Assembly (NCBI RefSeq): GCF_014204935.1
Contig: NZ_JACHMJ010000001.1
Location: forward strand, 2,232,001 to 2,296,000
DNA: 64,000 nucleotides
DNA from: Conyzicola lurida
GTDB lineage: Bacteria > Actinomycetota > Actinomycetes > Actinomycetales > Microbacteriaceae
Direction: 5' to 3'
The notes below the pieces were generated by a model. That model was given only the letters and a program-made list of their open reading frames with translations, was not told the origin of the DNA and did not search any database. The position numbers and the translations under genes were made by a program. Shown piece after piece: positions 1 to 31,519 of this stretch (within the stretch, counting starts at the first letter, position 1; every line of letters starts with the position of its first letter).

Positions 1-1195
1 TCGAGCGCGGATCGTCCTGGATGAGCGTTACCGCGACGGGCGCGAGCGCCTGGCCGTTCGCGTCGGTGCCGCTGTCGGAGATGACGGCGAACACCGCCCG
101 GGGCCAGCCGTCGCTCTGCTGCGGGAGGGTGACCTCGATCGGCCCCGAAGGGATGGCGGGGATCGCGGGGACCGTGGCGTCGGCGGTGCGCGCCGTGTAG
201 TTGAAGGTGCGCGCCTCGAGGGCCGGACCGGCGAGGCGGGTGCCCGCGAGCTCGATGTCGAGCGCGGCATCCGCGGCCGTGGTGACCTCGGAGAGGTCGG
301 CGACGATGCGCTTGGCCTGCTCCTCGGTGACGGCGGGCGGGCTGAACTGCTCGGCCTCCTCGGCGTCGGCCAGCGGGTCGGCGGTCGCGGACGGTTCGAC
401 GACCGTCTGACGGCCGGCCCAGAAGTCGGCGCTGCAGCCGCTGAGCGCGAGCCCGGTGATCAAAAGCGCGGGGATGATCGCGACGCGCGCCGAGCGACGG
501 CCCTTGGCGTTGGCCTCGAGCTCCCTCGGCTTCGACTTGATCGGCTTGTAGCGCGGCTGCTTCGGGAGCTTCGGCATCTTCTGCGACTTGCGGCGCGGGC
601 CGCGGCCCTTGCGGATGTGCGCGATCGCCCAGAAGAGAAGGAGAAGGCCGACGAGCAGCAGCACGCCCCCGGCGACCACGAAGGTGTTCGCCCATGGTGT
701 GGTGTTGTCGACCGGCCACGTGACGCTGATCTCGGCCGGCGCCGGCTGCACGCCGTCGGTCACGACGAGCAGGGAGATGTCCTCGGGCACGTTGACGGTG
801 AACGAGCTGGTGTTGCTGTAGCTCGCGAGCCAGAGGTCGGAGTCGACCGGGGTCGGAACCTCGGTCTCGGTGCCCTCGACCAGGGTGCTGGTGAGGCCGG
901 CTGTCTCGGCGTCGTAGGTGACGTCGTTGTAGCTCGCCTCCCCGACCCAGGCCAGCACGTCGGTGGTGCGGCCGTACGCGGCGAAGTTGCCGTCGGAGTC
1001 GCTCAACTGCACGAACTGGCTGCGCGGGTTCGCATTGAGCGCTTCCCCGCTGATCACCGTGACGGGAGCGTCGGTGGTGATGCTCGTCGCGGCGGTGACC
1101 TCGTCGGGCGCCGCCAGAATGGTCTTCTGAGCGATGCCGAGGCCGATAAGCAGGGCCGCGACAACAAAACTGACAATGGCGAGAACAAATCGCAC
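1..1195 (-). CDS. Membrane protein with internal lipobox (3' end cut by window edge)
   Basis: The reading frame starts at a GTG (1195-1193) preceded by AAAGGAG and stays open to base 1, so about 398 residues of the N-terminal part are visible. It begins with a hydrophobic segment (residues 3-20), then an extracytoplasmic domain of about 140 residues, a second membrane segment ending in a basic stretch rich in Lys, Arg and Pro, and then, near residue 235, a second hydrophobic run ending in LALSGC, which looks exactly like a lipoprotein signal. The part after it is Pro/Glu rich and ends in a soluble domain. I recognise it only as a conserved Microbacteriaceae envelope protein without a known function. 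It is divergent from the coiled-coil gene at 1479. Confidence 0.75.
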   Translation of the reverse strand, partial: MRFVLAIVSFVVAALLIGLGIAQKTILAAPDEVTAATSITTDAPVTVISGEALNANPRSQFVQLSDSDGNFAAYGRTTDVLAWVGEASYNDVTYDAETAGLTSTLVEGTETEVPTPVDSDLWLASYSNTSSFTVNVPEDISLLVVTDGVQPAPAEISVTWPVDNTTPWANTFVVAGGVLLLVGLLLLFWAIAHIRKGRGPRRKSQKMPKLPKQPRYKPIKSKPRELEANAKGRRSARVAIIPALLITGLALSGCSADFWAGRQTVVEPSATADPLADAEEAEQFSPPAVTEEQAKRIVADLSEVTTAADAALDIELAGTRLAGPALEARTFNYTARTADATVPAIPAIPSGPIEVTLPQQSDGWPRAVFAVISDSGTDANGQALAPVAVTLIQDDPRS

Positions 1196-1478
1196 GGGAT
1201 TACTCCTTTCGTGTCGCCCCAGCCAGACAAATCACGTGGCATCCTCACCCACTAGGCGGGTGCTCGCACTCGGGGGCGAGGGAGGATTTCCTGGAACCGG
1301 TGTCCGGGATGGCAACAGCAAAGACGATCAAGATTACCTGATGGGCGGCCCTTCGGCCTAACCACCGCTCTGAGAGTTAACTGGCAAGGCGGTGGGCGTC
1401 GGCCGTAACCGTGAACGAAGCTCGGGCACCCTGACCACTAAACTCGTGTCGTCCGGTTAATCGACAAGGAGCATTTTC
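1196..1478. promoter_or_regulatory. Divergent intergenic region
   Basis: This 283-base gap separates two divergent genes and must hold both promoters. The only clear signals are the two Shine-Dalgarno sites: AAAGGAG before the minus gene, and AAGGAG at 1467-1472 before the plus GTG at 1479. No convincing -35/-10 pair or operator was found. Confidence 0.4.
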
Positions 1479-4361
1479 GTGGCTGCTGACGACACAGACT
1501 TCGGTACGGAGATGCGTGGATACCGCAAAGAAGCGGTAGACAAAGCAATCCAAGACCTCCGGCGCGAGCTGATCAAAGCGAACGCCGACAGGGCCGAAGC
1601 CACCAAAGAGATCAAGCGTCTCGCGGCGGTGGCGGAAGACCTGCAGGCCGAGCTGGACGAGACCGGTACACCCACCTACAGCGGACTCGGCACCAAGCTC
1701 GAGAACACCCTGCGGGTCGCGGAGGAGCAGTCGACCCGGCTCATCAGCCAGGCGGACATCGACGCGGAGAAGCTGCGCAGCAGCGTCAACAACGAGATCC
1801 AGAAGCTGTCGGCGGACGCGCGCGAGACCGCCGACCGCCTGGTCTCCGACGCCACAGCACAGTCGAACCAGCTGCTCGACAGCTCGCGGTCCGAGGCCGA
1901 GCACGTGCTGGGCCGCGCGAAGACCGAGGCCGAGACGCTCATCAACGACGCGGTGCGCGAAGCCGCGTCGATCCGCGGCGCCGTCGCGACCGAGGCCGCC
2001 GAGGCCCGGTCGACCACGAAGCGCGAGGCCGCCGCCATCCGCGCCGCCGGCGAACGCGAAGTCGCCGAACTCACCGTCGTCGCGAGCCGCGAGGCTGCGG
2101 AGGCCCGTGAAGCCGCCGCACTTCTGGCGCGCGAGACCGAGCTCGGCCGCGTCGAGTTCGAGACCGAGAACGCCAAGCTGCGCGGCGATCTCGCCCGCGA
2201 CGTCGAGCAGGGCCGCACCGACCTCGCCCGTGACACCGAGACCGCCCGCGTGCAGCTCGAGAACGAGACCGAGGCCGCACGCACCCAGCTCGCCAACGAG
2301 ACAGAGGCCGCACGCGCCGCCCTCGCCGCCGAGACCGCGGCCACCCGCGCGCAGCTCGACGCCGACACCACGGCCGCGAAGGAAGCGCTCGACGCCGAAG
2401 CGGCCGCCGTGCGCGCCGCTCTCGAGCAGGAGACGACCGCCGCCCGCGCCGAGCTCGAGATCGAGATCACCACGGCCCGCACCGAACTGGCCAACGACCT
2501 GGCGTCGGGCCGCGCGACCCTCGACAACGAGCTCGTCACCGGACGCACCGAACTCGCCAACGAGATCGCAGCGGGAACCGCCGCCCTCGCAGCCGACAAG
2601 GCCCGCGTGGCAGCGGAACTCGAGAACGAGGTGAAGGCGACCAAGGCCGCCCTCGAGAACGAAGTCACCACGACTCGCGCCGCGCTCGAGAACGAGGTCA
2701 CTACCACCCGCGCCGACCTCGCCAAAGAGGTCGACAGCAAGCAGACCGCCATCGACAGCGAGATCGTCGCCCGCCGCACCGCCCTCGACAGCGAGATCAG
2801 CGCCGCGAAGGCCGCTCTCGACAACGAGGTGACCGCCACCAAGGCCGGGCTCGAGAACGAGGTCATCACGACCCGCGCCGACCTCGAGAACGAGGTCGCT
2901 ACCACCCGTGCCGAGCTCGACGCCGACGTCATCGCGACCAAGGCAGAACTCGCCGCCGAAGTCCGGAACACCCGGGCAGCGCTCGAGTCCGAGGTCAGCA
3001 CCACCCGCGCCGCGCTCGAGGCCGAGGTCAGCACCACGCGCGCAGAGCTCGAATCCGAAGTCAGCACCACCAAGGCAGAGCTCGAGGCGGAGGTCATCTC
3101 CACCCGCGCCGCTCTCGAGAACGAGGTCACCAGCACGCGGACCGCGCTCGAGAACGAGGTCAGCGTCACGAAGACCGCGCTCGAGAGCGAGGTGAGCGAC
3201 GGCAAGGCCAAGCTCGAGAACGAGGTCGCTACGACGCTGGCCGCCCTGGAGAACGAGGTCACCACCGCCCGCGCGGAGCTCGCGATCGACATCGCGGCCG
3301 CCCGCGCCGCGCTCGAGGCCGACATCACCGAGAAGAACGCCACGCTCGAGTCGGCCCTGACCGCCGCCCGCGCGTCGCTCGAGGCCGAGATCACCACCGC
3401 CCGCGCCGAGGTGCACGACGAGACCGTCGCCGCCCGCGCCGCCCTCGATGCCGACACGGCCGCCGAGCGCGCCGCACTCGAGCACGAGATCACCACGGCC
3501 CGCAACGCCCTCGCCGCCGACACGGCCGAGGCGCGCACGTCGCTCGAGAACGAGACGGCCGCCGCATGGGCTGCCCTCGAGGCCGACACCGCCGCGGCCC
3601 GCACCGCGCTGGACAACGACACCGCGACGACCCGCGCCGCGCTCAACAAAGAGACGACGGCCGCGCGCATCGCGCTCGAACGTGAGACAGCGGCCGCCAC
3701 TGCCGCTCTCGCCGCCGAGACGGCCGAGGCCTGGACCGCGCTCACCATCGAGACCACCGAGGCGCGTGCGGCACTCGCGGTCGAGGTCGACCAGCAGCGC
3801 AGCGACCTCGCCCGCGACATCGCCCGCGAACGCGAGACCGTCGCCGGCGAGGTCGAACTGACCCGCGCGCAGCTCGCCCACGACGTGGAGGAGACCCGCA
3901 CCGCCATCGCTCGCGACAGCGAGCAGGCCCGCCTCGACCTCGACATCGAACTCAAGTCGCGCCGTGACGAGGGCGAGAAGGAGGCGCTGGCGAAGCAGCA
4001 GGAAGCGATCGCCCAGACGAACAAGTACCTGAGCGAGGCACAGGCCCAGCTCGACGAGGCAAACCTCCGCGCCGCCGAGAAGCGCGCCGAGGCCGCCGCC
4101 CTCGAGGACGATTCCCGTGCGGCCGCAGCCAAGCTTCGGTCGGAGGCCAATGCCACCGCTGCCGAGGTGCTCGCGAATGCCGAGGCCCGCGCAAAGGCCA
4201 TCGTCGCCGAGGCCGAAACCCAGAACACGAAACTCGTTACCGACGCCGAGGACCGTCTCGCTAAGATCAGGATCGAACGCGAGGCAGTCGCGGGATACTT
4301 CGAGAACCTCCGCGGTCTGCTGTCCCAGGCCGAAACCGTGAACGCGCCCGATCGCGACTGA
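1479..4361 (+). CDS. Giant coiled-coil protein, DivIVA-like head plus hendecad repeats
   Basis: This 960-residue protein starts at GTG with AAGGAG six bases upstream. The head (about residues 8-60) carries a DivIVA-type motif, GYRKEAVDKAIQDL, followed by a Lys/Glu-rich helix. From residue 245 to 827 (bases 2211-3959) it is an unbroken run of 53 tandem 11-residue units with consensus T-R/K-A-A-L-E-N-E-V-T-T; not one residue is gained or lost. The tail (828-960) is a conventional Ala/Glu coiled coil. There is no signal peptide or membrane segment, so it is cytoplasmic. Architecture resembles the actinobacterial filament proteins Scy and FilP, whose repeats are 51-residue or irregular. A role as a polar or cell-wall-growth scaffold is inferred from the DivIVA-like head. 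An AI-2E permease follows 19 bases downstream, probably cotranscribed. Confidence 0.85.
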   Translation: MAADDTDFGTEMRGYRKEAVDKAIQDLRRELIKANADRAEATKEIKRLAAVAEDLQAELDETGTPTYSGLGTKLENTLRVAEEQSTRLISQADIDAEKLRSSVNNEIQKLSADARETADRLVSDATAQSNQLLDSSRSEAEHVLGRAKTEAETLINDAVREAASIRGAVATEAAEARSTTKREAAAIRAAGEREVAELTVVASREAAEAREAAALLARETELGRVEFETENAKLRGDLARDVEQGRTDLARDTETARVQLENETEAARTQLANETEAARAALAAETAATRAQLDADTTAAKEALDAEAAAVRAALEQETTAARAELEIEITTARTELANDLASGRATLDNELVTGRTELANEIAAGTAALAADKARVAAELENEVKATKAALENEVTTTRAALENEVTTTRADLAKEVDSKQTAIDSEIVARRTALDSEISAAKAALDNEVTATKAGLENEVITTRADLENEVATTRAELDADVIATKAELAAEVRNTRAALESEVSTTRAALEAEVSTTRAELESEVSTTKAELEAEVISTRAALENEVTSTRTALENEVSVTKTALESEVSDGKAKLENEVATTLAALENEVTTARAELAIDIAAARAALEADITEKNATLESALTAARASLEAEITTARAEVHDETVAARAALDADTAAERAALEHEITTARNALAADTAEARTSLENETAAAWAALEADTAAARTALDNDTATTRAALNKETTAARIALERETAAATAALAAETAEAWTALTIETTEARAALAVEVDQQRSDLARDIARERETVAGEVELTRAQLAHDVEETRTAIARDSEQARLDLDIELKSRRDEGEKEALAKQQEAIAQTNKYLSEAQAQLDEANLRAAEKRAEAAALEDDSRAAAAKLRSEANATAAEVLANAEARAKAIVAEAETQNTKLVTDAEDRLAKIRIEREAVAGYFENLRGLLSQAETVNAPDRD
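2211..3959 (+). repeat. 53 tandem 33-bp coding repeats
   Basis: Fifty-three consecutive 33-base units encode 11-residue repeats in one frame. The commonest word is CTCGAGAACGAGGTC (Leu-Glu-Asn-Glu-Val). Units have diverged in sequence but not in length, and the central units (about 2640-3250) are the most alike. Confidence 0.9.
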
Positions 4362-4380
4362 GTAGCCAGGAGTACCCCGC

Positions 4381-5433
4381 GTGAAGATCCACAATCCGTT
4401 CCGACTCGGTCTTCTCGCGGGACTCGGCGTCCTCGTCGCGATCCTGATCGGTAGCGCCGTCGCGGATCTCGCCACGATCCTCACCTACATCGGTGCGGCG
4501 ATCTTCCTCGCCCTCGGCCTCGACCCGCTGGTCACCTGGCTCGAGCGGCACAAGGTCAAGCGCCCGGTCGCGATCATCATCACCCTGGTCGGCGTACTCG
4601 GTATCTTCGCCGGGCTCGTGTTCGCGCTGATCCCCGTGATCAGCGAACAGGTGCAGAACATCAGCAAGCTCATCACGAAGACGATCATCCCCGGCATTCA
4701 GGACGCCTCGATCATCACCGGCATCGACGACGCCCTGCCCTGGCTCGAGGTCAACGACCTGATCGGGCAGGCCGGCGACTTCATCGCCGACCCGACGAAC
4801 ATCGGCACGATCGGCGGCGGAGTACTGCAGGTCGGCATCAACATCGCAACCGGCGTCTTCGGCGGAATCATCATCATGATCCTGATGATCTATTTCGTGT
4901 CATCTCTCGGCAGCCTCAAGCGCGGCCTGTACCAGCTGGTGCCCGCCTCGAAGCGTGCTAACTTCATCGACCTCGCCGAGCAGATCAGCGTCTCGGTCGG
5001 CCGCTTCGTCATGGGCCAGATCACGCTCGCGCTGGTCAACGGCGTGCTGTCGTTCATCGTCCTCACGGCTCTCGGCGTCAAGTACTCCGCCCTGCTCGCG
5101 TTCATCGCCTTCCTCGGCTCCACGATCCCCCTCGTCGGAACCATCTCCTCGTCGGTGATCATCTCGCTCTGCGTGCTGCTCTTCAACGGCGCCGGCTGGC
5201 AGGTCATCGTGGTCGCGATCTACTACGTGGTCTACATGCAGGTCGAGGCCTACATCCTCAGCCCGCGCATCATGGCCAGCGCGGTGAAGGTGCCGGGCGT
5301 GGTCGTGGTGATCGCCGCCCTCGTCGGAGGCACACTGTTGGGCATCCTCGGCGCGCTCATCGCGATCCCGGTCGCCGCCGCGGTGCAGCTGATCATCAAG
5401 GAAGTCGTCGTCCCGCGGCAGAACGCCCTGTAG
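4381..5433 (+). CDS. AI-2E family transporter (permease)
   Basis: A 350-residue integral membrane protein of the AI-2E/YdiK/TqsA exporter superfamily. It has an N-terminal pair of membrane helices, a third around residue 70, an amphipathic soluble stretch (about 85-150), then five or so helices. The family signature near the C-terminus is visible in EAYILSPRIMASAVKVPG and the following glycine-rich helix GGTLLGILGALIAIPVAA. Family members transport autoinducer-2, ions or are uncharacterised; the substrate here cannot be read. The GTG start has AGGAG eight bases upstream. It follows the coiled-coil gene by 19 bases and ends 17 bases from a convergent hydrolase. Confidence 0.88.
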   Translation: MKIHNPFRLGLLAGLGVLVAILIGSAVADLATILTYIGAAIFLALGLDPLVTWLERHKVKRPVAIIITLVGVLGIFAGLVFALIPVISEQVQNISKLITKTIIPGIQDASIITGIDDALPWLEVNDLIGQAGDFIADPTNIGTIGGGVLQVGINIATGVFGGIIIMILMIYFVSSLGSLKRGLYQLVPASKRANFIDLAEQISVSVGRFVMGQITLALVNGVLSFIVLTALGVKYSALLAFIAFLGSTIPLVGTISSSVIISLCVLLFNGAGWQVIVVAIYYVVYMQVEAYILSPRIMASAVKVPGVVVVIAALVGGTLLGILGALIAIPVAAAVQLIIKEVVVPRQNAL

Positions 5434-6501: not shown

Positions 6502-8244
6502 CTAGCTGCCGCTCGGATTGTCGATCTGTTCGAGCCGCGTCTCTTCCAGGTCGAGCATCGCCTGCGCCCGACCGAGGATGCGCGACGGGTAGCTGCCGGT
6601 CGAGCGCGCCTCGAGCAGCGCCTCGCGTTCGGCCTGGAGCACTTCCTGCCGCAGCGTGCGGTACTGCTGGTGCGGCGATTTCGCGATCCCCGCGGATCCC
6701 CCGCCGTAGTTCGCCCGCTCCCACGCCGACTCCGCGCTGAGCAGGGTATCGTGGCGCACGCGCTCGATGACCTGCTCGTCGACGGGTTCGCCCTTCGGCA
6801 AGGTGAACGTCGGGTTCTCGAGCACCGCGAGGCCGGCGGCGCTCATCTCGTCGAGCAGCTCGGCGAGTTCCCGCCGGTCGGCGACCCGGTCCGAACCACG
6901 GATGCCGCTCACCTTGATCAGCCACGGCAGCGTGCCGCCCTGCACCAACAGGGTGACGACGGCCACGGTGAAGGCGATGAGGATGAGCTGCGACCGGTAC
7001 GGGATCTCCTCCGGCAGCGACTGGGCGGCCGCGAGCGTTACCACGCCGCGCATGCCGGACCAGCTGAGGATGATCCCGCCGCGCCATCCGAAGCCCTCGG
7101 CTTTCAACTGCTTCAGGTCGCCCTGCCGGCGCTGGAAGATGCGCTCGGCCCGGTCCTGACGGCGCCGCAGCTGGGGGTCGCCCTCCGCCCGGCCGCGCAG
7201 GCGGTCGAGCATGGCACGGAACTGCGACTGGCGCTCCTCGGCCTGATCGCCGCGGCGGCGCAGCACGAGCAGCAGCGGCCCGATGAAGAGGAAGCGGATG
7301 ACGACGATCACCAGCGCCATCAGCAGCCCGTATTCGACCGCGGCACGCACGCTGAGGTCTTTGTCGAGCACGTCGGCGATTATCGCGCTGATCTCGACGC
7401 CCATCAGCAGGAAGACGCCGTTCTCGAGCATGAACTGCACGGTGCGCCAGTTGAGCTTCTCCGAGATGCGGGCCTGCGCCGAGAAGCGTTTCGCACTGTT
7501 GTGGCCGGAATAGAGGCCGGCGGCGACGACCGCGAGCACGCCGCTCGCGCCGAGAGTCTCGGCGGGGATGAACGCGATGAACGGCACGGCGAGTGAGATG
7601 GCGGTGTCGAGCACCGGGTCGCGCAGCTTGGAGCGCGCCCAGACCGTGACGAAACCGACCAGCAGCCCGATCACCAACGCGAGCGCGACGGCATAGGCGA
7701 AGTCGCCGATGACATCCCAGAAGGAGACGGCGCCGCCGATGGCGACGATCGCCGAGCGAAGCAGCACGAGCGCCGTGGCGTCGTTGACTAGGCTCTCGCC
7801 CTCGAGAATGGTGACCAGTCGCGGGGGCAGACCGAGCTTCTTGCCGAGCGCCGTGGCGGCGACCGCGTCGGTGGGGCTGATGACGGCGCCGAGAGCGATG
7901 CCGCCGGCCAGCGTCAGGTCGGGGAAGATCAGATACAGGATGACGCCGGTGCCGAATGCGGTGACGAGAACGAGCCCCACGCTGAGCGCCGAAATCGTGC
8001 TGAAGTTGCGGCGCAGGTCGACGACCGGCACGTTGATCGCGGCGGCGTAGAGGATCGGCGGCAACAGGCCGAGCAGCACGATCTCGTGAGGTACGACGGT
8101 CGGTGCACCCGGGATGTAGCTGAATCCGAAGCCCACCAGGATGAGGATCAGCGGGGCAGCGACGCCGAGTTTCTTGCTGAACAGACCCGCGACAACGATC
8201 GTGACGACGGCCACGACACCGAAGACGAGGCCGTTTTCTACCAT
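6502..8244 (-). CDS. CPA1-type Na+/H+ (cation:proton) antiporter
   Basis: A 580-residue membrane antiporter. About eleven to twelve helices fill residues 1-400. The ion-binding helices carry GAVISPTDAVAATALGK and ESLVNDATALVLL, where the NDA aspartate is the expected ion-binding residue of the CPA1/NhaP family. An insert with many charged residues (RRRGDQAEERQSQFR) lies around residue 340-390. A cytoplasmic tail of about 120 residues follows the last helix; such tails are often regulatory. It should extrude Na+ (or K+) in exchange for protons and help pH and salt homeostasis. The ATG at 8244 is the first in-frame start. Confidence 0.9.
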   Translation of the reverse strand: MVENGLVFGVVAVVTIVVAGLFSKKLGVAAPLILILVGFGFSYIPGAPTVVPHEIVLLGLLPPILYAAAINVPVVDLRRNFSTISALSVGLVLVTAFGTGVILYLIFPDLTLAGGIALGAVISPTDAVAATALGKKLGLPPRLVTILEGESLVNDATALVLLRSAIVAIGGAVSFWDVIGDFAYAVALALVIGLLVGFVTVWARSKLRDPVLDTAISLAVPFIAFIPAETLGASGVLAVVAAGLYSGHNSAKRFSAQARISEKLNWRTVQFMLENGVFLLMGVEISAIIADVLDKDLSVRAAVEYGLLMALVIVVIRFLFIGPLLLVLRRRGDQAEERQSQFRAMLDRLRGRAEGDPQLRRRQDRAERIFQRRQGDLKQLKAEGFGWRGGIILSWSGMRGVVTLAAAQSLPEEIPYRSQLILIAFTVAVVTLLVQGGTLPWLIKVSGIRGSDRVADRRELAELLDEMSAAGLAVLENPTFTLPKGEPVDEQVIERVRHDTLLSAESAWERANYGGGSAGIAKSPHQQYRTLRQEVLQAEREALLEARSTGSYPSRILGRAQAMLDLEETRLEQIDNPSGS

Positions 8245-8984: not shown

Positions 8985-9539
8985 TCAGCGGACTGCCAGC
9001 ATCACGGTGACCACGTCGTCGAGCAACTGGTCGACCTGGGACTCGTTGTAGCCGCGGTGCGTGGCGCGGAACGCGCTCAGGCGCACCTCGTCGATGCTCA
9101 TCGGCTTGCCGTGCTGGAAGTAGTCGACGAGCCGGTCGGCGAACGCGTCGACCTGCTTCACGTCGTACGCGCGGCTGAACAGGCTGACCCGCGAGAAGCG
9201 CTGTCCCTCGGGGCGCGCGAGACGGTCGAGGATGACTTGCGCGGTGCTGCGGGCCTTGCTGTACCACTCCGCGTCGCCGCCGGGAGGGGCGAAGGCGCGG
9301 TCGCGCTCACGGCTGGCGAAGGCGTCTTCGAGGCGCTCGAGGGCGGCGTCGACGTGCGTCGTGGAGTAACCGCCCTTCTGCATGGCGAAAGCAGTGGTGC
9401 GGATGCTCTCTGCGGTCACGACCGAGGGGCCGGGGAGTTCGGACGAGTAGGCACGACGGGCGTCTTCGAGGAAGTCCTCGACCTGGTCGACGTTGTAGCC
9501 GCGGCGCGAGTTACGCGTGCGGGGAAAGGTTGTACTCAC
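8985..9539 (-). CDS. DivIVA-domain protein with four motif copies
   Basis: A 184-residue cytoplasmic protein made of four copies of the short DivIVA-type motif: RRGYNVDQVEDFLEDAR (12-28), KGGYSTTHVDAALERL (55-70), SRAYDVKQVDAFADRL (122-137) and HRGYNESQVDQLLDDV (161-176). Copies 1 and 2 parallel copies 3 and 4, including the stretch between them, so an internal duplication is likely. There is no long coiled coil. Role is unknown; DivIVA motifs usually target curved membranes or bind division proteins. It starts 31 bases after cdsA and probably ends the frr-cdsA transcript. Confidence 0.85.
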   Translation of the reverse strand: MSTTFPRTRNSRRGYNVDQVEDFLEDARRAYSSELPGPSVVTAESIRTTAFAMQKGGYSTTHVDAALERLEDAFASRERDRAFAPPGGDAEWYSKARSTAQVILDRLARPEGQRFSRVSLFSRAYDVKQVDAFADRLVDYFQHGKPMSIDEVRLSAFRATHRGYNESQVDQLLDDVVTVMLAVR

Positions 9540-9570: not shown

Positions 9571-10518
9571 TTAAGCGAATATGAGGTAGAGCGCGTACGC
9601 GGCAGCGGCCGACGGCAGGATCGAGTCCAGACGGTCGAGGAATCCGCCGTGGCCGGGCAGCCAGGTGCTGATGTCCTTGATGCCGAGATCCCGTTTGATC
9701 AGGGATTCGGCGAGGTCTCCGCCGGTCGCGGTGACGACCATCGTGGCGCCGAGGATGAGTCCGACCCACCACGGCTGCTGCAGCATGAAGATCGACGCGA
9801 GGACTCCGGCGACGAGGGCGGCTACGACGGAACCGGCGAATCCCTCCCAGGTCTTCTTGGGGCTGATCAGCGGGGCCATCGGATGTTTGCCGAAGTTCAA
9901 TCCGGAGGCGTAGGCACCGACATCCACCGAGACGACGACGATCAGGAAGGCCAGCGTCCACCACTGGCCGCCGTCCTGGGCGGTCAGCAGGACCGTGAAG
10001 CCGCCGAGGAAGACCACATAGGACTGGATGAAGGCGCCGGCGCCGATGTCCTTGAGCAGTTCGCGCGGCGAGACCCGGAGTTTCGGAACGGCCAGTTCGG
10101 CGATCCGCCAGAGGGTGACCAGCCCGACGCCGGCGATCGTGGCCAGCCAGTGGCCGGTCGCCAGTCCGTAGAACGACGCGGGCACGATCGCCACGGCGGC
10201 GATCACCGTGGGGATGCGGGGGACGTCGCGGCCGGCGAAGCGCAGCGCGCTGGCGAGTTCGAACGACGCGAAGATGAGCAGGATGGTGCCGAACACCATG
10301 AACAGCTCTTTGACGAAAATGAGACTGATGACCAGTCCCCCGCCGAGGGCCAGACCGATCAGGATCGCCGAGAACAGGTTGCGGCCGCTCCGAGCGTTGA
10401 TCTTGTCGTTCGTGGCGCGCACCTGCGCCTCGATGTCGGCAACGGTCGCTTCGAACTCGGCACGCGAGTGCGGTGATTTCCTGGATCGGTTTTCTGGACC
10501 GCCGGCGGGATCCGACAT
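9571..10518 (-). CDS. cdsA: Phosphatidate cytidylyltransferase
   Basis: A 315-residue inner membrane enzyme that makes CDP-diacylglycerol from phosphatidic acid and CTP, the branch point of phospholipid synthesis. The first 60 residues are soluble and charged, followed by about eight helices. The family signature is near the C-terminus: LIKRDLGIKDISTWLPGHGG followed by FLDRLDS; PKKTWEGF lies earlier. Its ATG directly abuts the frr stop codon (no intervening base), which indicates translational coupling, and the pyrH-frr-cdsA order is the usual bacterial one. Confidence 0.95.
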   Translation of the reverse strand: MSDPAGGPENRSRKSPHSRAEFEATVADIEAQVRATNDKINARSGRNLFSAILIGLALGGGLVISLIFVKELFMVFGTILLIFASFELASALRFAGRDVPRIPTVIAAVAIVPASFYGLATGHWLATIAGVGLVTLWRIAELAVPKLRVSPRELLKDIGAGAFIQSYVVFLGGFTVLLTAQDGGQWWTLAFLIVVVSVDVGAYASGLNFGKHPMAPLISPKKTWEGFAGSVVAALVAGVLASIFMLQQPWWVGLILGATMVVTATGGDLAESLIKRDLGIKDISTWLPGHGGFLDRLDSILPSAAAAYALYLIFA

Positions 10519-11157: not shown

Positions 11158-11871
11158 TTACTTGGAGACCAGGGTGCCGATACGGTCGCCGCGGATGGCC
11201 TTGGTGAGGTTGCCGGCGGGAGCCATTCCGAAGACCACCATGGGCATCGCGTTGTCCATGCAGAGGCTGAACGCGGTGGAGTCGACGACCTTGAGGCCCT
11301 GCACGAGCGCCTCCTGGTAGGTGATCTCGTCGATCTTCTGAGCGGCCGCGTTGGTGCGGGGGTCGGAGTCGTAGACGCCGTCGACGCCGTTCTTGGCGAC
11401 GAGCACGACCTGCGCGTCGATCTCGAGGGCGCGCTGGGCGGCCACGGTGTCGGTGGAGAAGTAGGGCAGGCCCGCGCCGGCGCCGAAGATGACGACGCGG
11501 CCCTTCTCGAGGTGACGCTCCGCGCGACGCGGGATGTACGGCTCGGCGACCTGGGTCATCGAGATGGCGGACTGGACGCGCGTGGCGGCGCCGGCCTGCT
11601 CGAGGAAGTCCTGCAGGGCGAGCGCGTTCATCACGGTGCCGAGCATGCCCATGTAGTCGGCACGGCCGCGGTCCATGCCGCGCTGGCTGAGCTCTGCGCC
11701 ACGGAAGAAGTTGCCTCCGCCGACGACGATGGCGATTTCCGCGTCAGCGGATGCCTCGGCGATTTCCTTCGCGAGGGCGGACACCACGTCGGGGTTCACG
11801 CCGAGCGACCCGCCGCCGAATGCCTCGCCGGACAGTTTGAGAAGGACGCGTCTCTTGCGCTCGGTGGTCAT
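11158..11871 (-). CDS. pyrH: UMP kinase
   Basis: A 237-residue cytoplasmic kinase that phosphorylates UMP to UDP; bacterial type of the amino-acid-kinase fold. Motifs: [12 protein letters not shown] at the N-terminus, [11 protein letters not shown] for phosphate binding, the [16 protein letters not shown] helix, and [13 protein letters not shown]. Length is normal for hexameric bacterial PyrH. It lies between tsf (with a terminator between) and frr, so it probably has its own promoter in 11872-11926. Confidence 0.97.
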
Positions 11872-14162: not shown

Positions 14163-14846
14163 ATGCGAACCCTCCCCGCGCTGCTGACGGCCCTGCTCGT
14201 CACTCCCCTGCTCGTACTGCCCGCCGCCCCCACCGCGGGCAGCTGGTCATGGCCCGTGGCGGCTCCGCACCCCGTCGTGCGCGAGTTCATCGCCCCCGAG
14301 ACGCGGTACTCGGCCGGCCACCGCGGCCTCGACATCGGCACGGAATCGCCCACGGTCACCGCGCCCGCCGACGGGGTCGTGCACTTCTCCGGCGTCGTGG
14401 TCGACCGGCCGGTGCTGTCGATCCGGCACAGCGACGGCGCGCTGTCCAGCTACGAGCCCGTGTCCTCCCCGCTCGCCGCGGGAGACGGCGTCGTCCGCGG
14501 CGCCGAGATCGGCATCCTCCAACCCGGGCACTGCTCGTCGCTCTGCCTGCACTTCGGAGTGCGGGTCGACGGCGAGTACGTGTCGCCGCTGCTCTACCTC
14601 GGCGGCATGGAACGGTCGGTGCTGCTGCCGACACGGGTCATCGCGTCGGCGGCTCCGGGTGCTGCCGCAGCAGCGGCTGCCTTCTCAGGCGCGGGGGTGC
14701 GCGAGCGCGTAGCTCTCTTTGAGCCGCTCGGTGGAGACATGGGTGTAGATCTGCGTCGTGCCGAGGCTCGCGTGCCCGAGCATCTCCTGCACGGCCCGAA
14801 GATCCGCTCCCCCGTCGAGCAGGTGGGTCGCCGCGGTGTGGCGTAG
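14163..14846 (+). CDS. M23-family (LytM-like) secreted peptidase
   Basis: A 227-residue exported protein with signal peptide ([19 protein letters not shown]... AAPTAG). The M23 core has [20 protein letters not shown], with the H-x3-D zinc pair, and [17 protein letters not shown]. The usual catalytic HxH reads CLH in [12 protein letters not shown], so the first His is Cys; this variant may be typical of a subfamily or may reduce activity. The family normally ends soon after the LLPTR stretch (about residue 160); here the frame continues 160 bases antisense into xerC, adding a sequence with no family likeness. Confidence 0.7.
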
Positions 14847-15710
14847 TGCGTGCGGACCCGCGGGTCCGCCGCCGGGCACGGTCTCGAGCAGCTCGGCCAC
14901 GAGCCGGTAGACGGCGCGGGAGCCGACGCGCGCACCACGCGCGCCGACGAACAGCGCGCTGGACGCGGCAGCGCCGGGAACGGTCCCGCGCAGCTCGCGC
15001 CAGGCGGCGATCGCGTTCTTCGCGGGCACACCGAACGGCACCACGCGTTCCTTCGAGCCCTTGCCGAGCACCCGCACGGTCAGGCGCCCGAGATCGACGT
15101 CGCGGTCGTCGAGCCCGGTGAGCTCGCTGACCCGCAGCGCGGACGCGTAGAGCAGCTCGACCATGGCGAGGTCGCGGGCGGCCAGTGCGCGGGCGGTGGC
15201 CGAGGGGCGGTCGGGGTCCGTGGAATCGCTCGCAGCCGCGGGGCTGCCTGTAGCCGCGGGGCTGCCTGTAGCCGCGGGCCTGCCTGTAGCCGCGGGGCTG
15301 CGCGGCACCGTCGGTTCGCCGGCAGCGCGACGGGCGAGCCCGCCGAGCAGGTCGTCCATCTGCGCGCGGGTGAGAACCCGGGGCAGGTGGCGGTCGGGTT
15401 TCGGGGCGCGGAGGCGGGCAGCCGCATCCGTCGGCGTGTCGCCGGTGCGGGCCAGCCAGGAGGTCAGCGCGCGGGCGGTTGCCGAGCGGCGGGCGAGGGT
15501 CGCTTTGGCGAGTCCCGCGGTCGATCCACGCCAGAGCCAGCCCCGCAGCAGTTCGAGGTCGATGTCGCGGGCCGTCGTGGCCCCGGTCTCGGCGGCGAAG
15601 CGCAGCAGGTCGGCGAGGTCGGACCGGTACGAGCGCACGGTGTGCTCGCTGAAGCCGCGCTCTGCCGTGAGGTAGAGCGTGAATTCGTCGAGCACCCGGT
15701 CGAGCTGCAT
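14685..15710 (-). CDS. xerC: Tyrosine recombinase XerC
   Basis: A 341-residue tyrosine recombinase of the XerC/XerD type, which resolves chromosome dimers at dif near FtsK. The N-terminal SAM-like domain has [20 protein letters not shown]. Catalytic residues are seen in order: Arg in [12 protein letters not shown], Lys around [23 protein letters not shown] (His, Arg), [15 protein letters not shown] (His and nucleophile Tyr). Normal length is about 300; the excess is a Pro/Ala/Thr/Ser insert of about 40 residues just before the catalytic Arg, encoded partly by 18-base repeats (15233-15304). Its position near dprA/comM and rpsB is the usual actinobacterial context. Confidence 0.93.
15233..15304 (-). 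repeat. Four 18-bp tandem repeats inside xerC
   Basis: Units at 15233-15250, 15251-15268, 15269-15286 and 15287-15304 follow TAGCCGCGGGGCTGCCTG with one to three differences each. On the coding strand they give a six-residue repeat (S/R-P-A-A-T-G). The length keeps the xerC frame. Confidence 0.9.
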
Positions 15711-15886
15711 GCGTCCATCGTGCCCCGTCGTGCGGCCGCCGCGCGCGAGGCGTGCCGTGACGGCGCGCGAGGCGTGCCGCCGTCGGCGCCGGGCATGCGG
15801 CCGCGGTGCGCGGGGCTTGTCGCCGCGGCGCGCGGGGCTTGCCGCCGCGGTACGCGGGGCTTGTCGCCGCCGTGCGCGCGCTGCCG
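15711..15886. repeat. GC-rich spacer with 22-bp tandem repeats
   Basis: The 176-base gap between xerC and the MMPL gene holds a short array of 22-base units starting GCCGCGG and containing GCGCGGGGCTTG: 15800-15821, 15822-15843, 15844-15865 and a partial fourth from 15866. Two copies of GCGCGAGGCGTGCCG precede them (about 15743-15778). The region carries the xerC promoter; no terminator with a T-run was seen. Confidence 0.75.
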
Positions 15887-17989
15887 CTACGGCCGCGCTG
15901 CCTCAACCGCGGTGTCGGAGTTTTCGTCCGGAGTCGCGAGGTGCGCCGGCGCGTGCAGCTTCGACGGCCACCAGAATTTCTCCCCGGCGATGAATGCCAA
16001 GGACGGCACGAGCACGGTGCGCACGAGCAGGGTGTCGAGCAGCACACCGATGCAGACGATGATGCCGATCTGGGTGAGCGTGATGAGCGGCAGCACGCCG
16101 AGCACAGCGAACACGGCAGCGAGCAGGATTCCCGCGCTGGTGATGACCCCGCCGGTCGACGACAGCGCCCGGATCATCCCGCCGCGGGTGCCGTGCTGCA
16201 CGGCCTCCTCCCGCGCCCGGGTCACGAGGAAGATGTTGTAGTCCACACCGAGCGCCACCAGGAAGAGGAAGCTGAACAGGATCACATTCGTGTCGATCGC
16301 GGGGAAACCGAAAACCGATTCGAACAGCAACCAGCTCGCTCCGAGGCTGCCGAAGAACGACGCGACGACCGTGAGCAGCAACAGCACAGGGGCGACGATC
16401 GAGCGCAACAGCAGCACGAGCACCAGGAAGACGAGCGCGAGGATGAGCGGGATCAGCAGATCCTGGTCGGCCTGCTGCGCCGTGGACTCGTCGAGCGTCT
16501 GCGCGTCGAGTCCGCCGACGAGGGCGTCCGCCCCGTCGATGGACGACAGCTCGCCGCGCAGTGCCGTGATCGCGGCAAACGACTCGGGAGTCTCCGCGGC
16601 CGCGTCGAGGACCACGTCGATCTGGGTGATGTCGCCCGCGGATTCTCCGGGGGTCGCCGAATCGACCCCGTCGACGGTCTCGGCCGCGGCGACGACCTCG
16701 TCGACCGAGTCGCTGTTCGCGATCACCACGACGGGCGAGCCGCTGCCGGCGCTGAACGCGTCGGCGATGATCTCCTGGCCAACGACGGCCTCCGGCACCG
16801 AGGTGAACTTCTCGGTCTGCGCGAGCCCGACCTTGATCTGCGGCACGCCGGCGAGGGCGAGCCCGCCCAGCAGCAGCACTCCGACCACGGCGATGGCGAC
16901 GGGCTTGCGCGAGACGGCGGTGCCGAGGCGGAACCACAGACCCGAGTGCGCCTTGTTCTCGGTGCCGAAGCGCGGCACGTACGGCCAGAACAGTCCGCGG
17001 CCGAACAGCACGAGCGCGGCCGGCAGCACGAAGAGGGCGAACAGCATCGCGACGACGACGCCGGCGGCGCAGGCGAGGCCGAGCGCGCGGTTGCCCGTGA
17101 GCTGGGCAAAAAGAAGGGTCAACAGACTGAGTACGACGGTGCTGCCGCTCGCGATAATGGCGGGCCCGGCACCGCGCAGCGCCTGCGCCATGGCGACGTG
17201 CCGGTCCTCGACCAGCCGCAACTCGTCGCGGTAGCGCGCGATCAGGAGCAGCGCGTAGTTGGTGCCGGCACCGAAGACGAGCACCGAGAGGATGCCCGTG
17301 ACAGAGGCATCGAGCGCGATCCCCGCGGCTGCGGCGATACGTGTGGCGACGATTCCGGCGAGACCGTCGGCGAGACCGACGACCGCGAGCGGCACCAGCC
17401 AGAGCCAGGGGCTGCGGTAGGTGATGAGCAGCAGCACCGCGACCACCAGCACCGTGGTGAGCAGCAGGGTGAAGTCGGCGCCCTTGAAGACCGCGGCGAC
17501 GTCGACCGCAAATCCTTCGGGTCCCGTGAGCAGGGCGGTGAGACCGTCGGGAAGATCGGCACCGGCGATCTCGCGCAGGTCGGCGGCACGCTCGGCCTGC
17601 GCCGCGACATCCGCCACATTTTCCAGGGGGACCACGACGATCGCCGCCGTGCCGTCGTCGGACACCGTGGGCGGCGGCACGAATCCGTCGAGCGAATCCG
17701 CGGCGAGGGCCGTACCGGCCGCGGTGATCGCCGCGATGTCCTCGTCGGTCAGAGTGTCGCCGTCGCGGCCGAAGACGAAGAGCGCTGTCGTGGAGTCGGC
17801 GGCCGGAAGCGTCTCCTGCAGAGCAGCGACACGCGCCGACTCGGCAGAGTCGGGCAGCCCGACACCCGGTGACGTCTCTTCGTCCGAGCCGGACCCCAGC
17901 GCGAAGATCGCCGCGGACACGGCGAGCGCAACGAGGAGCACGATCCACGAGGTCTTTTTCGCGGTGATGAAGGTGGAGAGGCGACGCAT
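15887..17989 (-). CDS. MMPL/RND-superfamily transporter
   Basis: A 700-residue exporter of the MMPL group. It has one N-terminal helix, a periplasmic loop (about 40-165), five helices, a second periplasmic loop (about 375-515), and five more helices: the duplicated RND layout. Key stretches are [22 protein letters not shown] and [19 protein letters not shown], the two Asp/Tyr-containing helices typical of proton relay in this family. Substrates of relatives are lipids, glycolipids or drugs; here unknown. It is transcribed away from the MarR regulator at 18082, whose site probably lies in the 92-base gap between them. Confidence 0.88.
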
Positions 17990-31445: not shown

Positions 31446-31459
31446 CAGCACTTCTCTAA

Positions 31460-31519
31460 GTTTTCGGAGCTCTGAGTTTCGCACTCTGGGTTTCTGCAGC
31501 TCTGAGCTTCGGCAGCAGG
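31460..31519. repeat. Degenerate 14-16 bp tandem repeats upstream of map
   Basis: Four imperfect units in the tetR-map gap: GTTTTCGGAGCTCTGA, GTTTCGCACTCTGG, GTTTCTGCAGCTCTGA and GCTTCGGCAGCAGG. They end about 22 bases before the map ATG. No -35/-10 pair is apparent in them. Confidence 0.6.

Follow-up and report, generated by a model that had tools for sequence, protein, structure and literature searches.

A FilP-family protein of Conyzicola lurida, assigned by sequence, with a pure hendecad rod whose length varies among homologues almost only by whole units

FilP-family proteins carry two conserved motifs at the N-terminal borders of their first two coiled-coil segments, as described in PMC2680258, which lists members from Janibacter and Tropheryma and reports filament assembly in vitro by three members with different rods, from Streptomyces, Mycobacterium and Janibacter. 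According to PMC9858780, the FilP motif is a DivIVA-like RGYDxxEVD with a heptad coiled coil, FilP is found mainly in Micrococcales, Micromonosporales and Pseudonocardiales with lengths from below 200 to above 1000 residues, and hendecads (eleven-residue repeats), noted in both FilP and Scy, are largely unexplored compared with heptads. An interaction between FilP and DivIVA in Streptomyces is described in PMC4255298 and PMC6599971.

Here we describe a gene near the start of a 64,000-nucleotide stretch of Conyzicola lurida (contig NZ_JACHMJ010000001.1, positions 2,232,001 to 2,296,000), referred to as the window, which encodes a protein of 960 residues with a DivIVA-like head, a long rod and a conserved tail. 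The most probable reading, to which we assign a probability of about 0.78, is that the product is a FilP-family, intermediate-filament-like scaffold with a hendecad rod, which would be dimeric, form filaments and lie near the cell pole.

Relationship to FilP, Scy, Wag31 and PolyDIV

Both motifs that define the FilP family were present in the window protein, with a predicted helix starting at each (Table 1). RGYRKEAVD opens helix 1 and PTYSGLG...LRVAEE opens helix 2, and the Streptomyces FilP counterparts are RGYDRAQVD and PSYAGLG...LRLAEE, the counterpart of motif 2 being PSYAGLGARVEKILRLAEE. Relative to RGYDxxEVD the D and the E are replaced in C. lurida; several relatives from Cryobacterium, Agromyces and Leifsonia have RGYDKDEVD. 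Four residues of motif 1 (R13, G14, V20 and L27) and three of motif 2 (G69, G71 and L78) were invariant in 44 sequences. Residues 16-62 peaked at a period of 3.505, that of an ordinary heptad coiled coil, and AlphaFold2 modelled the head as two helices (residues 17-63 and 67-245) with a mean predicted local distance difference test (pLDDT) score of 88.7.

When the head was used as a phmmer query, all eight Streptomyces FilP sequences (E 3e-10 to 6e-9) and all six Scy sequences (2e-7 to 2e-3) were matched, and none of the 24 Wag31 sequences, nor the single PolyDIV sequence, was among the matches listed. A profile of 86 heads again matched every FilP (6e-24 to 7e-22) and every Scy (8e-8 to 9e-6); 12 of the 24 Wag31 sequences were among the matches listed, the best at 6e-7. 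The FilP alignment spans residues 5-198 of the window protein. In a tree of 56 heads, in which the bootstrap was not fully settled and long branches were flagged, 12 Wag31 sequences split off at 100/100 and Scy, FilP and the window family fell on the other side.

Because both N-terminal motifs are present and the head-profile and tree evidence point the same way, the protein is, as judged from sequence, a FilP-family member of Microbacteriaceae and not the undescribed cytoskeletal class proposed in the initial annotation. The clear affinity of its head, on these comparisons, is to FilP. The DivIVA-like head that the initial annotation had recognised was borne out by the motif at residues 14-27 and by a profile of 44 heads, which matched the solved N-termini of GpsB and DivIVA (E 6e-5 to 6e-3); the direct Pfam DivIVA match was weak (19.5 bits for the protein alone against a cut-off of 28, and 29.1 bits with neighbouring pieces added). 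The polar or septal scaffold suggested at the same time is supported as the most likely role.

The protein resembles FilP of Streptomyces coelicolor (SCO5396) in having both N-terminal motifs, a head-profile match and a hendecad-rich helix, and Scy in joining a DivIVA-like motif to a very long, mostly hendecad rod, as Scy is described in PMC9858780, where it is also said to lack a helix ahead of the motif. A Scy orthologue was considered and rejected, as the NCBIfam model NF041483 matched nothing in the genome. DivIVA/Wag31 and GpsB share the head domain by profile, whereas Wag31 forms a separate tree branch (12 sequences) and no motif 2 was seen within the N-terminal 110 residues of the Wag31 sequences inspected. 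PolyDIV has two to eight DivIVA-like domains according to PMC9858780; the window protein has a single RGY motif, and this identity was also rejected, since at least two such domains are needed.

Composition of the rod

The rod consists of exactly 53 units of 11 residues with no insertion or deletion, as first annotated, and the preceding unit (residues 234-244) is also in register, which makes 53 a slight undercount. Residue identity within the rod was 0.48 at lag 11 and 0.44, 0.42 and 0.44 at lags 22, 33 and 44, and it was 0.07-0.14 at other lags up to 43. Hydrophobicity peaked at a period of 3.670 (11/3 = 3.667) with a power of 20.6, against 8.8 or less in 200 shuffles of the rod, which fits the hendecad coiled coil originally claimed. 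The estimated length near 87 nm was also correct as arithmetic (583 x 0.15 nm). The consensus T-R/K-A-A-L-E-N-E-V-T-T was right in outline, with positions 1, 10 and 11 proving to be mixtures of Ala and Thr.

The lag profile sets this rod apart from those of the described proteins. Streptomyces FilP is 311-312 residues long, with a lag-11 identity of 0.22-0.24 (eight sequences), whereas the window protein carries a pure hendecad array. Scy, the repeat of which follows a 51-residue pattern, gave 0.26-0.28 at lag 11 and was also raised at lags 7, 18, 29 and 40 (six sequences; two of the eight, L122 and L123, were left out as not cleanly excisable). The raised lags in Scy are a sign of heptads among the hendecads, and the window rod had no signal at 7, 18 or 29. 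The initial annotation had stated that the repeats of FilP and Scy are different, which holds insofar as this rod is all hendecad and free of a heptad offset, but not in that FilP and Scy contain hendecads as well.

Leu occupied position 5 in 92% of units, and position 9 was Val in 40%, Thr in 30% and Ile in 17%; position 2 was Arg or Lys in 85% and position 8 Glu or Asp in 98%. The hydrophobic stripe is therefore Ala/Thr1-Leu5-Val/Thr/Ile9, or 3 of 11 positions. Position 8, on one side of it, is acidic (-0.98) and position 2, on the opposite side, is basic (+0.85), as would be expected for pairing salt bridges. The net charge is -59 over 583 residues, and a single Pro was found in 21,014 rod residues from 83 homologues. 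The free helix has 3.63 residues per turn (PMC9858780), and because 11/3 is very near this value the rod should be almost straight, the label "right-handed" being merely nominal.

Between the window protein and homologue L130, the rod keeps 66% of its residues and the head 88%, and the synonymous share of changed codons is 41% in the rod and 75% in the head. Core position 5 was kept in 94% of cases, and the outward positions 6 and 10 in 47 and 38%. A weaker trend of the same kind was found between L052 and L055, in which position 5 was kept in 97% and the others in 59-89%. In these two pairs it appears to be the pattern of the rod that is conserved rather than its exact sequence.

Rod length among homologues and competing explanations

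Length was taken as the number of residues between RGY and the tail motif, the tail anchor being relaxed, in homologues with at least 44% head identity. Those below this value, among others L013, L015, L019-L021, L023-L029 and L133-L137, were left out; one of them, L016, fell in class 0 on an apparently false anchor. Both anchors were found in 145 of the 150 homologues, and the distance modulo 11 was 1 in 96 of them, 8 in 48 and 5 in one, L011, the sole exception to the two classes. The five dropped for want of a tail anchor were L042, L048, L056, L075 and L217, four of which lay at a contig end; L042, the Homoserinibacter gongjuensis copy (near position 8000), stops after 270 residues and represents either a truncated gene or an assembly error in the repeat.

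When heads were made non-redundant, 128 rows remained (82, 45 and 1). They span 353 to 1068 residues in 50 distinct lengths, all but one of which belong to the two classes. Stricter anchors used earlier had given 79 of 79 (at least 47% identity), 82 of 83 and then, among additional homologues, 39 of 39 without duplicates and 53 of 53 with them. In the first set, with 32 distinct lengths, no modulus from 5 to 18 other than 11 gave a comparable concentration. Alignment of seven rows from each class showed that class 8 differs from class 1 by a four-residue gap at the rod end, where 11 residues become 7. L108 had an extra four-residue block near the rod start, in an alignment cut at 270 residues, so that this is possibly an end effect.

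A quick tree of the 128 heads required at least 69 length changes and three class changes, and FastTree gave the same result. Because metagenome assemblies may collapse repeats, the analysis was repeated with isolates alone (49 sequences picked by record titles, the window included); these had 17 lengths, with at least 16 length changes and one class change, against 12 to 15 for moduli 7-10 and 12-14. Variation in repeat number, a check named in the initial annotation, was thus found: lengths vary, and almost only by whole 11-residue units.

Single events could be seen in DNA alignments of 17 homologue pairs, in which gap lengths were left free. L071 and L050 differed by a single 66-bp gap at 87% identity, and four other pairs (L071/L037, L037/L050, L083/L044 and L083/L087) by a single 33-bp gap each. 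Six pairs of equal length aligned without gaps, and two more (window/L129 and L129/L130, with 53 units in each of the three) aligned with compensating whole-unit gaps. Four distant pairs (window/L131, L031/L033, L039/L031 and L032/L072) had scattered gaps, some of them not whole units, and prove nothing alone.

Whole-unit changes of this kind could be a mutational by-product, in which misaligned recombination between 33-bp units alters the rod and its length has no function. This explanation, which is compatible with membership of the FilP family, is a serious contender, at somewhat less than an even chance. It gains from the five close pairs with a single 33- or 66-bp gap, from the two equal-length pairs that align best with compensating gaps, and from the free variation of rod length among related genera; in addition, self-similarity rises with rod length in class 1 (Spearman 0.72, n = 53), which fits copying. 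However, the units are unlike in their synonymous codons, which should leave few long identical stretches where recombination could occur, and the step between the classes is a loss of four residues, which keeps the stripe though it is not a repeat unit. Recent tandem duplication at the DNA level was rejected, as on average the units had no excess of shared synonymous codons, which speaks against recent copying. Furthermore, one length is common to 33 of the 45 non-redundant class-8 homologues, which indicates that length is not always in flux. Most Cryobacterium loci (14 of 17) and every Agromyces locus (10 of 10) between L060 and L110 have the same RGY-to-tail distance, 503, and lengths vary freely elsewhere.

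The rod might instead be an amphipathic helix of 11-mers that binds lipid and lies along the membrane surface, as in apolipoproteins or synucleins. The Pfam Apolipoprotein model (PF01442) matched five stretches at E 2.6e-21, and the head profile had a weak match to apolipoprotein A-IV (0.0068), but the Pfam score of 76.7 bits was below the cut-off of 90. Lipid-binding helices have basic residues on both sides of the hydrophobic face, whereas this rod has a face of three positions, a net negative charge and opposite charges beside the stripe, and we consider such a role improbable. Least probable of all, and largely refuted by the head tree and the head-profile and phmmer comparisons, is the reading as a canonical DivIVA (Wag31) paralogue that serves as chief organiser of the pole: the NCBIfam Wag31 model matched residues 13-198 (E 7.2e-8) and the head profile matched GpsB/DivIVA structures, but the score was 32.6 bits against the NF050102 cut-off of 260 (which no protein in the 40 genomes searched reaches), the tree sets the protein apart from Wag31 (100/100), and all 40 genomes, that of C. 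lurida included, have a Wag31-model match, which in C. lurida is to a separate candidate Wag31 that, at 110.5 bits, likewise misses the cut-off.

Locus, distribution and proposed role

The features of the gene and its neighbours are given in Table 1. The tail was delimited from 10 aligned sequences, in which invariant columns become dense again from about residue 805 onward. Two antisense open reading frames (ORFs), of 1035 residues at 1377-4484 (minus) and 850 residues at 1676-4228 (minus), were taken to be by-products of the GC-rich 33-bp repeat. A DUF3068-like name for the 588-residue neighbour was unsupported.

Table 1. Features of the FilP-family gene and its neighbours in the window
Feature	Position	Strand	Description	Basis
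588-aa protein	1..1195	-	runs past the window edge upstream; conserved divergent neighbour	no Pfam match
AAGGAG, likely ribosome-binding site	1466..1471	+	7 bases 5' of GTG	direct reading
FilP-family protein	1479..4361	+	960 aa; GTG start; stop 4359-4361	ORF list, FilP head-profile match
Motif 1, RGYRKEAVDKAIQDL	1515..1559	+	residues 13-27; DivIVA-like	
Helix 1	1527..1667	+	residues 17-63	prediction; heptad period over 16-62
Motif 2, PTYSGLGTKLENTLRVAEE	1671..1727	+	residues 65-83; second coiled coil starts here	
Conserved helix leading into rod	1677..2210	+	residues 67-244	AlphaFold2 helix 67-245
Rod, 53 x 11 residues	2211..3959	+	residues 245-827; units of 33 bp	
Conserved tail	3960..4358	+	residues 828-960	
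Tail motif AGYFENLR	4290..4313	+	residues 938-945; anchor in length counts	
AI-2E family transporter	4381..5433	+	19 bases 3' of rod gene	Pfam PF01594, E 4.6e-53
PolyDIV-like protein	8985..9539	-	repeated DivIVA-type motifs	Pfam DivIVA, 39.4 bits

The locus is conserved. In all 66 named loci of at least 16 kb (66 of 80 named loci fetched), a minus-strand copy of the 588-residue gene preceded the rod gene, and a plus-strand AI-2E transporter gene and then, farther along, a PolyDIV-like gene followed it. In the window the last of these adjoins a cytidylyltransferase gene (9571-10518) and an amino-acid-kinase-family gene (11158-11871) read as uridine monophosphate (UMP) kinase. PMC9858780 places UMP kinase near most PolyDIV clusters, and methylmalonyl-CoA epimerase or crotonyl-CoA carboxylase near Scy and only some FilP clusters. 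Neither of the latter two was found among the 10 neighbouring proteins scanned, a scan outside which several upstream ORFs lie. Elsewhere in the window, an 18-bp unit is repeated 3.8 times at 96% identity (15234-15301) within an integrase-type ORF (14685-15710, minus), GC-rich repeats of 22, 44 and 65 bp (15729-15898) lie mostly between this ORF and an MMPL-family gene, and imperfect 16-bp tandem repeats occur at 31454-31516.

Head matches were found in 32 of the 40 genomes searched; the head profile matched 211 of 249 Microbacteriaceae genomes (70 of 78 genera) and, in a sample of 149 genomes from the order, 127 (56 of 63 genera), each count including C. lurida, and the weakest of these genome matches may be other DivIVA-like proteins. 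AI-2E genes were located in eight genomes without a head match, and the stretches were read in seven (L238-L243 and L245). In these seven, the 588-residue gene and the AI-2E transporter gene are adjacent, some 160-250 bases apart, and neither head nor tail was found in these stretches by tblastn (E 1e-3); the FilP-like gene is cleanly absent there. One of these genomes has a second AI-2E gene, and the stretch around it, the eighth read, lacked the 588-residue gene.

Several results weigh against a filament-forming FilP-type scaffold with a spacer rod. The head profile scores Scy little better than the best Wag31 (8e-8 against 6e-7), and the top structure match of the 44-head profile, above GpsB, was a designed helical bundle (1.8e-8), so that part of the head score reflects generic coiled coil. 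The full-length AlphaFold2 model, with helices at residues 17-61, 67-241 and 246-953, had low confidence (mean pLDDT 63.6) and, as a single chain, is uninformative on dimers. L055 and L057 are too similar to judge core conservation, and L060/L070 lacked it. No excess of shared synonymous codons between units was found (class-1 mean at lag 1, 0.002; window, 0.06), so that recent tandem copying is not directly visible. Thirty-eight of the 249 family genomes had no match, and the clean absence in seven genomes indicates that the gene is dispensable there and not generally essential. No experimental work on any Microbacteriaceae member was found in the literature seen.

In the FilP-type scaffold that we favour, the DivIVA-like head (motif 1 with its heptad coiled coil, a break and motif 2) would pair two chains, probably in parallel, and present a binding loop; the all-hendecad rod would hold the two helices side by side, almost untwisted, and the conserved tail would close with AGYFENLR. 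Dimers might then join end to end and laterally into filaments near the growing pole, alongside Wag31/DivIVA, a probable partner. At 3.667 residues per turn, a unit completes three full turns, so that each one gained or lost would shift the rod length by about 1.65 nm and leave the tail unrotated against the head; the loss of four residues, about one turn, would likewise preserve the hydrophobic stripe. Such phase-keeping would allow wide variation in length, nearly only in whole hendecads. Since only whole hendecads, or the four-residue step, keep head and tail in phase, the rod could be an orientation-preserving spacer, with selection, and not mutation bias alone, setting scaffold length in 1.65-nm steps (about 1 to 66 units among species). 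We offer this last proposal tentatively and regard it as less likely than not.

Among the papers listed in the literature searches there was no account of this rod or of length variation by whole hendecads, and the novelty of the quantum is provisional. The family membership and general role are known ones, and what is unusual is the pure hendecad rod with its length quantum. A seemingly unknown protein is thereby moved into a family with experimental precedent. If the spacer proposal is true, bacteria would possess a natural set of rods that differ in length but share one fixed head and tail. With 50 natural rod lengths on a conserved head and tail, the constraint that coiled-coil phase places on evolution could be tested directly, as could the question of whether scaffold length has been adjusted to cell shape.

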